Below, piece after piece: positions 15,848 to 33,629 of a DNA stretch of 64,000 bases. This DNA is from Hyphomicrobiales bacterium. Its GTDB lineage: Bacteria; Pseudomonadota; Alphaproteobacteria; Rhizobiales; JACESI01. The DNA lies in contig JBDWKL010000043.1 in the NCBI GenBank assembly GCA_039973685.1, forward strand, positions 271,749 through 335,748. Reading direction: 5' to 3'. Below the pieces are notes generated by a model. That model did no database searches, was not told the origin of the DNA, and worked only from the letters and a program-made list of their open reading frames with translations. A program made the position numbers and the translations under genes. Position 1 is the first letter of the stretch; each line of letters opens with the position of its first letter.

Positions 15848-16678
15848 ATGATGGCACGTCACAAACTGCATTCTTGCGTAATTAATTTTCTGCAAAAAAT
15901 GGATATTTTTTACAATACTCCTCAGGAAAACAGAGTATTTAATACTTTATGTGCTGTACTTATACTTATTTTTTCACCCGTTATTCTCACAAATGCTCAG
16001 GCAGACAACATAACGATTGATCAAAAGGTCATCAAACGAGATTTCATGCGTGTCGTTATGTCGGCGGAATATGGTGGGAACAGCAAATTTGGGCGTTCCG
16101 TAAAAAAATATGATTCCACTGTCCGCTTTGCAATCATCAATCATTCAAAACTTGATCGTAGACAAGCCATAAAAGGTTTCGTCTGGAGCCTGCCGACAAA
16201 AATCGCTGGCTTGAAAACCTCCGTGGTATCTAATCCACAACAAGCAAATTTCCGCATCCACGTTGTCGATAAAGATCAATATGCCGATGTCATCCGCAAT
16301 GAAATTTACGGTGGCGCTCGCAAACCTGTGCGTGGCAAATGCTTCGTTCGGGTGCTGGCCTCTAAAAATGCGAACAGCATTGGCTCGACTGATGTCGTTA
16401 TCCGTTCCGATGATGGCGAGCGCTTATTCCAGCGCTGCATGGTTGAAGAAATCTTGCAGGGCCTCGGCCCTCTCGCTGATCGTGGCAACAAGAATTTCAG
16501 CATTTTCAACACAGCCTCGCAGCATTCCAGCTTTACAGTCCATGATCAGGTCTTGATGAATATATTGTACGACCCACGGATCAAGCCGGGCATGTCTAAG
16601 TCGCAAGTTGCGAAAATTTTGCCAACAGTAATGCATGACTGCCTAAAGCGGCTCAACTTGATTGAGCCGCAAAGCTAA
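15848..16678 (+). CDS. DUF2927 exported protein
   Basis: 276 residues. A hydrophobic stretch around residues 31-52 ending in TNAQA looks like a signal peptide, so the protein is probably periplasmic or lipid-free exported. The body has the DUF2927 pattern, including CFVRVLAS, CMVEEILQGLGPL and LYDPRIKPGMSKSQV. The function of this family is not established. Two tandem ATGs occur at 15848 and 15851; another at 15899 would shorten the unusually long N-region before the signal peptide and may be the true start. No SD is convincing. Expressed in the direction of the L,D-transpeptidase but separated from it by a 236-bp structured leader. Confidence 0.8.
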   Translation: MMARHKLHSCVINFLQKMDIFYNTPQENRVFNTLCAVLILIFSPVILTNAQADNITIDQKVIKRDFMRVVMSAEYGGNSKFGRSVKKYDSTVRFAIINHSKLDRRQAIKGFVWSLPTKIAGLKTSVVSNPQQANFRIHVVDKDQYADVIRNEIYGGARKPVRGKCFVRVLASKNANSIGSTDVVIRSDDGERLFQRCMVEEILQGLGPLADRGNKNFSIFNTASQHSSFTVHDQVLMNILYDPRIKPGMSKSQVAKILPTVMHDCLKRLNLIEPQS

Positions 16679-16793
16679 GTTGCCTGACAAGGTTTCTAAT
16701 AAAGGCTTCTGGCAAGGTTTCAGGCGATAAAACCAGCAAGTTTCGTTAACCATTCTTCCCAACCATTTGCTAACCTTAAGCGATGATTTACGG

Positions 16794-16911
16794 CTCACAG
16801 CTGCGTGAGGCGGGCAAACGTTTACTATTTAGCGCCCTGCTTCACGTACTCTATTGGCAAGGCGCTGTGTTTTTGGCGCCCTTTGTTTGAGACGAATTGT
16901 AGAGAGTACGT
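16794..16911 (+). promoter_or_regulatory. Structured 5' leader sequestering the SD of the L,D-transpeptidase
   Basis: ACGTACTCT (16844-16852) is the exact complement of AGAGTACGT (16903-16911), which overlaps the SD-like AGAGAG and ends 3 bp before the ATG. Between them, GGCGC (16861-16865) can pair either with upstream AGCGCC (16831-16836) or with downstream GCGCC (16876-16880), two mutually exclusive stems. A further hairpin CTCAC-6 nt-GTGAG lies at 16794-16809. The layout suggests translational control by RNA folding, but the transcript start is not known. Confidence 0.5.
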
Positions 16912-16914
16912 CAC

Positions 16915-17715
16915 ATGTTTGAAAAAACCTTATCCCGTTTGACCCTTGCGGGTCTCGGAATACTCATGGGCGGTGCAATGTTAATTGCGCCGGCAGAAGC
17001 AGGAAGCCGCTACGGGGAACAACCTCCTGTTGTTCTAAGTCCTGATTTAACAGAACCATGGCAATTACAACTAACCACACCGCGTAGCGCGAAAGTGGTT
17101 ACTCGATCTTCTAAATCCTTTGCGCGTCAAAAACGCCAAAATCGCAAGAACAAACGCGCTAAACATGGTTATTCCACTTCCGCGCTTGCAACGGGTGCTT
17201 CCCTTCGCACGAAGAAGAAACAGCAGCGTTATTCAACAACACAACGTAGCCGCGAATTACCTAAGCGCTTTTTGCCACAAGTTGTTGAATATAATACCAA
17301 TCAAAAACCAGGCACGATCGTGATCGATACGACAAGCCGTTACCTATATCTCGTATTGGGCAATGGTGAAGCGCGCAGATACGGCGTTGGTGTTGGCAAA
17401 CAAGGCTTCGGCTGGACAGGCTCTGAACGCGTAACCCGTAAAGCAGAATGGCCATCATGGCGTCCGCCAGCAGAAATGATTGCCCGCGAACGTAAAAAAG
17501 GCCGCATCTTGCCTGCTTTCATGCCAGGTGGTGTTGAAAACCCAATGGGCGCACGCGGTATCTACCTCGGCTCCACCCTTTACCGCATCCACGGCACCAA
17601 TGCGCCTTGGACAATCGGTCAGGCTGTTTCATCAGGCTGCTTCCGTATGCGCAATGAGGATGTTAGCGATCTTTACCCACGGGTAAAACTCGGCGCAAAG
17701 GTTGTTGTAATCTAA
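16915..17715 (+). CDS. L,D-transpeptidase (YkuD domain), exported
   Basis: 266 residues. Signal peptide 1-29 (IAPAEAGS cleavage region), then a very basic low-complexity stretch (about 60-115, many Lys/Arg/Ser/Thr), then a YkuD catalytic domain from about 130. The catalytic motif HGTNAPWTIGQ...SSGCFRMRNED supplies His226 and Cys242, so it should be active in forming 3-3 crosslinks in peptidoglycan or attaching proteins to it. The basic N-terminal region could bind the anionic cell wall. It is monocistronic, followed by a strong terminator, and its SD lies in an inverted repeat with the leader. Confidence 0.92.
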   Translation: MFEKTLSRLTLAGLGILMGGAMLIAPAEAGSRYGEQPPVVLSPDLTEPWQLQLTTPRSAKVVTRSSKSFARQKRQNRKNKRAKHGYSTSALATGASLRTKKKQQRYSTTQRSRELPKRFLPQVVEYNTNQKPGTIVIDTTSRYLYLVLGNGEARRYGVGVGKQGFGWTGSERVTRKAEWPSWRPPAEMIARERKKGRILPAFMPGGVENPMGARGIYLGSTLYRIHGTNAPWTIGQAVSSGCFRMRNEDVSDLYPRVKLGAKVVVI

Positions 17716-17740
17716 CGATTACTTTTGAACCCTAAAAACA

Positions 17741-17773
17741 AAAAAGCCCCGACATTCACGTCGGGGCTTTTTT
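17741..17773. terminator. Bidirectional terminator between the L,D-transpeptidase and glcF
   Basis: AAAAAGCCCCGAC - 6 nt - GTCGGGGCTTTTTT: a GC-rich stem flanked by A and T tracts, so it can act on both strands. It lies between convergent genes (stops at 17715 and 17800). Confidence 0.92.
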
Positions 17774-17799
17774 ATTTATGCGTGTTTTTATCCTGCGCC

Positions 17800-33552: not shown

Positions 33553-33629
33553 TGGTACAGTCGGGTGGATTTGAACCACCGGCCTTCGGCGCCACAAGCC
33601 GACGCTCTAACCAACTGAGCTACGACTGC
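33553..33629 (-). tRNA. tRNA-His (GTG), lacking the extra G(-1)
   Basis: Folds fully: acceptor GCAGTCG/CGACTGT, D stem GCTC/GAGC, anticodon stem TCGGC/GCCGA around TTGTGGC (anticodon GTG), 5-nt variable loop, T stem GGTGG/CCACC, and an encoded CCA; 77 nt in total. The base before position 1 is T, not G. Pair 1-72 is G-U, and the discriminator is A rather than the C73 usual in bacterial tRNA-His. Confidence 0.95.

Follow-up and report, generated by a model that had tools for sequence, protein, structure and literature searches.

A conserved start-codon hairpin before one class of L,D-transpeptidase genes in Hyphomicrobiales as a candidate translational operator

Conserved element at the start of the LDT gene

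Comparison of sequences leads us to regard it as probable, with moderate confidence, that the start of an L,D-transpeptidase (LDT) mRNA from a Hyphomicrobiales bacterium carries a conserved cis-acting translational operator hairpin. The element, recognised by a covariance model (R1, described below) and in other genomes, lies at positions 16891–16917 (+) of the window, which is the whole 64,000-nucleotide stretch of DNA analysed here, and is composed of GACG, a loop with GTA and the SD, TACGTC and the ATG. As far as sequence can tell, it is kept as a unit, with its pairing mostly kept, directly before one LDT class. The presence of this hairpin before one class of LDT in a number of rhizobia-like bacteria suggests control at the level of translation.

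The gene itself (16915–17715, +) encodes a 266-aa YkuD-domain LDT, as judged from a Pfam match to PF03734 (E 2.3e-21) and from the motif SSGCFR in its translation, a form of SSGC[I/V/F]R, which we take to be the motif of the YkuD catalytic domain. The family comparison covered four genomes, namely the window's own (G000) and the same-genus relatives G001, G002 and G003, whose orthologous LDTs share 63.7–69.4% identity with it. The nearest hits that carry a name, Bradyrhizobium and Phreatobacter among them, likewise point to Hyphomicrobiales as the order of the window.

The order of the element is GACG, a loop containing GT[A/G] and the SD GAG, then TA and CGTC. In the window, the 5′ arm GACG (16891–16894, +) pairs with the 3′ arm CGTC (16909–16912, +), which is situated inside the SD–ATG spacer and shows covariation with the 5′ arm in part of the relatives. 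The window stem is short (4 bp), G-U pairs occur in the stem, and in several lineages the pairing extends into the AUG. The loop measures about 14–21 nt, the distance between the arms varying over this range. It holds GTA at 16899–16901 (+), which reads GT[A/G] in most canonical rows, and the SD-like GAG at 16904–16906 (+) within GAGAG. In alignment A1 (28 rows), GAGT is invariant, and columns 18–35 pair in 27 of 28 rows and columns 17–36 in all 28. In alignment A3 (68 rows), G30, G32 and T33 are invariant and A31 is nearly so. The GTA could also form a 3-bp inner stem with TAC at 16907–16909, which would compete with the outermost loop-closing pair; this inner pairing is lost in several variants, for example L016, L030 and L058.

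In the proposed mechanism, the 3′ arm would double as the SD–AUG spacer, while the loop would display the SD (GAG) together with its conserved flanking bases, and closure of the hairpin would lower translation initiation. Since the letters of the loop and spacer are conserved beyond the needs of pairing, a trans-acting factor, either protein or RNA, probably recognises the hairpin and sets the translation of the LDT. More tentatively, this factor could be an undescribed Hyphomicrobiales regulator (an RNA-binding protein or a small RNA) which binds the hairpin and couples the envelope or growth state to the translation of one dedicated LDT, a proposal that we would put at somewhat below even chances.

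Distribution of the element

The sequence GTAGAGAGTNCG was found once each in G000, G001 and G002, always directly before the LDT gene, and was absent from G003. The reversed GTAGAGAGTNCG, used as a control, had 1, 2, 0 and 1 copies in G000, G001, G002 and G003; as it also occurs 0–2 times per genome, it is the place of GTAGAGAGTNCG that matters and not the count. When the scanned loci were searched for GAGTACGTC with at most one mismatch directly before ORFs of at least 100 aa, 28 of the 31 matches were LDT starts, compared with 0–8 matches for 30 shuffled motifs in the same scan. Among 188 LDT-related entries, a census which includes near-copies and some repeated genes, GAGTACGTC preceded an in-frame start exactly in 23 and with one mismatch in 7 (shuffled-motif means of 0 and 0.72, respectively). 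The 80 entries of this census picked without regard to the motif, most of which are probably paralogues, had three exact sites and no one-mismatch site.

The spaced pattern GACG-N4..10-GTA-NN-GAGTACGTC matched in 16 of 297 genomes of the order, once in each, and 15 of these 16 matches sit 0–2 nt before an LDT ORF, G082 being the exception; the reversed pattern gave six matches in five genomes. The same element was thus found before orthologous LDTs in diverged genomes. Because GACG and GT[A/G] lie at distances that differ by single bases, the element is not coding; coding by an upstream ORF was rejected for the same reason. A class-wide search with GAGTNCGTCGATG was uninformative, the listed matches being mostly GAGTTCGTCGATG, perhaps coding.

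On the LDT tree, the element clusters, requiring 15 changes compared with a shuffled mean of 49.7 (0 of 500 as low). Near-copies inflate this clustering; on the other hand, four rows scored as lacking the element (L031, L170, L203 and L229) are the same genes as the scored rows L152, L013, L025 and L023, so that 15 changes is too high a count. In the census and on the tree, the second LDT rows of element-bearing loci and the rows L006–L012 of the window's genus are without the element. The Brucella, Ochrobactrum and Falsochrobactrum loci (L040–L051) contain no exact or one-mismatch GAGTACGTC site; a branch with weak support places them close to the clade of the window. In two of six loci inspected from this group (L040 and L042), GGACGCAAAACAG stands about 20 nt upstream of the ATG and may be what is left of the element. 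The element is largely lost in L004. L335 and L336, which belong to family f20, have GGGT in place of GAGT at the start and lack a matching left arm; in this branch the element is apparently in decay. The LDT start of L068, labelled Reyranella, is nearly identical to that of L074, and L068 may be a misbinned Bradyrhizobium.

Covariance model searches

The covariance model R1, with a stem of six pairs, was trained on 28 start regions. It matched the window at 16879–16919 (36.9 bits, E 7.3e-8), the window sequence being a training member. With stricter filters, R1 gave 68 matches in 64 of 397 genomes, of which 49, in 49 genomes (12%), lie before LDT ORFs. Strength separated these sites, with 42 of 43 matches at E ≤ 0.003 preceding LDTs and only 7 of 25 above this value; the lone strong match located elsewhere was L271 (E 1.9e-4). 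Among the 49 sites, 21 are in model-building genomes and 28 outside, several of the latter being close relatives of genomes used. The 49 also include three taken from the LDT census (L016, L020 and L023), one identical with the site of L005 (L266) and one, running off its contig, that was counted on a partial LDT sequence (L275).

Across 385 genomes drawn from the class, five of the 28 listed ones belonging to the same order, R1 produced eight matches at E ≤ 0.05. The true sites are those in G000 and G038, while none of the other six was seen to precede an LDT. In Rfam release 15 (4227 families), no family matched the element at its gathering score. Within the window, only a tRNA at 33556–33629 reached the threshold, and the region 16680–16980 had no match at E ≤ 5.

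Pairing between the two arms

The canonical arms GACG and CGTC hardly vary and hence give no covariation signal, the canonical set being 80.6% paired and its shuffles likewise 80.6%. In alignment A2, which comprises eight Phreatobacter-like starts, the stem was 94.7% paired, a value reached by 10 of 500 shuffles. One of its pairs is AU in three rows, CG in four and a gap in one, and the number of pairs changed on both sides was within the ordinary range, being reached in 444 of 500 shuffles.

In an arm-swap test of 13 deviant lineages, own arms paired better than swapped ones (p 0.00065, with relatedness and base composition not fully modelled). Four start regions had been added by hand (L004, L013, L018 and L021), the last three after their pairing was noticed. 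Without the three rows added in this way, the test gave p 0.0014 (n = 10), and when two later-found rows were left out too, p was 0.007 for the eight rows gathered before pairing was looked for. The left arms also paired better than their shuffles. For 39 representatives, the author's choice from 68 distinct start regions, z was −5.4 (0/300), with relatedness and base composition only partly modelled; the deviants gave −2.3 (3/300) and the 45 window ORFs, as a comparison, −1.8 (14/300).

Two families were considered separately. Among the 12 genomes of family f20, three starts have the A-U form, five the C-G form and four no matching left arm. The left-arm swap gave p 0.0008 for this family, but 9 of its 12 start regions duplicate earlier members of the set and the new ones (L331, L335 and L336) are all without the stem, so f20 cannot count as independent support. 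In family f44 (20 genomes), 18 starts were tested, leaving out L364, where no element-like start was found, and L359, a copy of L358. Here the arms read GACA/UGUC in L355 and GACG/UGUC in L357–L359, while the left arm is of the CGUCGAU type in L018, L361–L363, L366 and L369–L372, where the right arm pairing with it runs into the AUG. The left arms of f44 paired better than shuffles (z −5.7, 0/300), but within the family swapped arms were almost as good (p 0.22). The arms are broken or missing in L005, L063, L070, L330, L331, L335 and L336, as well as in L365, L367 and L368 of f44.

These data also bear on the best-surviving alternative, namely that a small RNA or protein acting in trans recognises the conserved letters at the ribosome-binding site as a linear site, the hairpin being incidental. 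Such a site would suit the stronger conservation of GAGT and the following spacer relative to the stem, as well as the retention of GAGTCCGCCG in L063, L330 and L331, which have no matching left arms. It would leave unexplained the advantage in pairing that own arms have over swapped or shuffled ones. A small RNA site is further disfavoured by the exact copies of GACGTACTC in G000, G001 and G002 (5, 5 and 3, respectively): among these 13 sites, no pair had similar flanks except the LDT site. Taken together, we consider a linear site unlikely, though it deserves more weight than any other alternative. A search for an antisense small RNA with nine exact letters yielded no conserved candidate in G000, G001 and G002. 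The reversed GACGTACTC is more frequent in these three genomes, with 26, 20 and 23 copies.

Long-range pairing in the window leader

The preliminary description of this DNA proposed that the LDT leader can hide its ribosome-binding site through a 9-bp pairing of an upstream arm ACGTACTCT (16844–16852, +) with a downstream arm AGAGTACGT (16903–16911, +). Both arms lie at these positions and are exactly complementary. The downstream arm overlaps the SD-like GAGAG as described, but instead of touching the ATG it is separated from the ATG at 16915 by CAC (16912–16914). The two alternative stems suggested for GGCGC (16861–16865) can also be drawn, as its partners AGCGCC (16831–16836) and GCGCC (16876–16880) are both present. 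Conservation of the complementary pairs in relatives, whose absence would by that description itself refute the proposal, was found in none of G001, G002 and G003. In the four-leader alignment, the ACGTACTCT positions differ in all three of them, while the start side is kept as GTAGAGAGTACG in G001 and G002 and reads GTAGAGAGT in G003. The downstream arm is conserved, but as part of the local element. The start of the LDT does lie in a structure able to cover the ribosome-binding site, and the comparison supports a conserved structured start, but through a different, local hairpin (16891–16912) and not through the 9-bp arm.

Of 20,000 dinucleotide shuffles of the window leader, 0.1% contained a complement of at least nine letters to the 16 bases that precede the ATG. 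In a mechanical list of 45 window ORFs of at least 200 aa, overlaps included, the LDT start had the longest complement (9), followed by one other ORF with 8; with about 45 ORFs, one 9-nt complement per window would be a surprise of a few percent. Among 55 start regions that bear the element and have sufficient DNA upstream, the window alone had a complement of at least 8, the other 54 having none. On this comparison, the 9-bp pairing is a lineage-private or chance feature.

Folding predictions depended on the assumed transcript start. With a start at 16794, 16800 or 16820, the core of the long pairing had a predicted probability of 0.6–0.99 from 10 to 45 °C, while with a start at 16853 the local hairpin was dominant (0.87–1.0). 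With a start at 16740, neither structure was clean, and the long pairing rose from 0.02 at 10 °C to about 0.64 at 37 °C, the SD being mostly paired throughout. In the longer predicted leaders of the window, the local hairpin was minor (0.00–0.16). Folding of 16794–16950, another check proposed earlier, indicated a leader only modestly more stable than shuffles (z −1.67, 10/200 as low). The folding model alone cannot choose between the long pairing and the local hairpin, whereas conservation favours the latter.

A regulatory role of the long pairing in the window's own lineage, as a private switch competing with the local hairpin, thus appears improbable. Although an exact 9-bp complement has P of about 0.001 per leader and the predicted exchange of the two structures between starts at 16794–16820 and 16853 would suit a switch, all three same-genus relatives have a different upstream arm, two of them with the SD side intact, the match is a few-percent surprise among the ORFs of the window, and a start at 16740 weakens the core pairing.

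It is more doubtful still that temperature alone melts the hairpin, as an RNA thermometer would require in such a model. The stem at the start codon is short, and the predicted stability of 38 start regions of 36 nt is small (−0.3 to −9.4 kcal/mol). Moreover, the best Rfam match of the L033 start is a Pseudomonas thermometer model that overlaps it, albeit far below threshold (16.6 bits compared with a cut-off of 60; E 0.62). Against this, the strong letter conservation would be unexpected for a simple thermometer, no Rfam thermometer matched at threshold, and the SD is located in the loop of the conserved hairpin and enters a stem only in the non-conserved long pairing of the window. In addition, the SD stayed mostly paired from 10 to 45 °C in four of the five modelled window leaders. 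Neither temperature nor two-state behaviour is therefore specifically supported for the RNA switch or thermometer first suggested. Finally, the inverted repeat GACG...CGTC might bring to mind a transcription-factor operator in the DNA that overlaps the start codon, but this is the least probable reading, given the variable arm distance, the occurrence of G-U pairs and a constant element–ATG distance that is better explained by ribosome contact.

Immediately upstream of the element, the inverted-repeat scan found a hairpin GGCGC...GGCGCC (16861–16880, +). Hairpins of other sequence occupy about the same position in L003 and L005, and none is present in L004. A conserved upstream hairpin was rejected as a general feature, the mean z over 39 loci being −0.54 compared with −0.70 upstream of 46 window ORFs.

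Relation to known systems

The operator of the R17/MS2 coat protein is a translational-operator hairpin overlapping a start codon. The translational operator hairpin favoured here resembles it as a short stem-loop at the translation start with conserved loop letters and a likely trans-acting factor, but differs in belonging to a chromosomal cell-wall gene, in having the SD in the loop and the spacer in the stem, and in that its factor is putative. With the fourU and ROSE thermometers, as far as the accessible descriptions go, it shares a structure over the ribosome-binding region; unlike them, it has the SD outside the stem, highly conserved letters and no Rfam match at threshold. The element would be a new family of cis-acting translational RNA, itself a known kind, with a mechanism that we infer.

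In the same order, the small RNA PmaR of Agrobacterium likewise provides post-transcriptional control of cell-wall genes; according to the accessible text of that paper, it occurs only in Agrobacterium and in a single strain of Rhizobium, and this text makes no mention of ldt or transpeptidase (PMC6234868). Hyphomicrobiales-specific LDTs, from the same order as the window LDT, crosslink peptidoglycan and tether it to outer-membrane barrels, and in Agrobacterium they matter for crosslinking, outer-membrane tethering and shape (PMC11527210, accessible part). The same part of this source reports CtrA motifs upstream of some Agrobacterium LDTs and also names ChvG/I, with no mention of post-transcriptional control or small RNAs for these enzymes. 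In the open-licence literature, we found nothing in print on translational control of LDTs.

As wall integrity and polar growth depend centrally on LDTs in one Hyphomicrobiales member that has been studied (PMC11527210, accessible part), the conserved start-codon hairpin offers a handle on the control of one LDT and a probe to fish for its regulator. If the regulator suggested above exists, LD-crosslinking or outer-membrane tethering would have a control point at translation in polar-growing bacteria.

Surroundings of the LDT gene

Upstream of the LDT lies a DUF2927 gene (15848–16678), and visual inspection shows the end of its coding sequence at the corresponding place in L003, L004 and L005. 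Between the two genes, TAACCTTAA at 16771–16779 is invariant across all four same-genus leaders, with GTTAACC nearby, and this is perhaps a promoter or CtrA-like region. It is followed at 16794–16809 by the dyad CTCAC-AGCTGC-GTGAG, which is retained as CTCAC..GTGAG in L003 and in a weaker form in L005, while L004 has a different palindrome, TTACACGTGTAA, in its place. On the 3′ side of the LDT, an inverted repeat with A and T tracts was seen by eye at 17740–17775, outside the list of the inverted-repeat scan, and is probably a terminator common to the LDT and the convergent gene.
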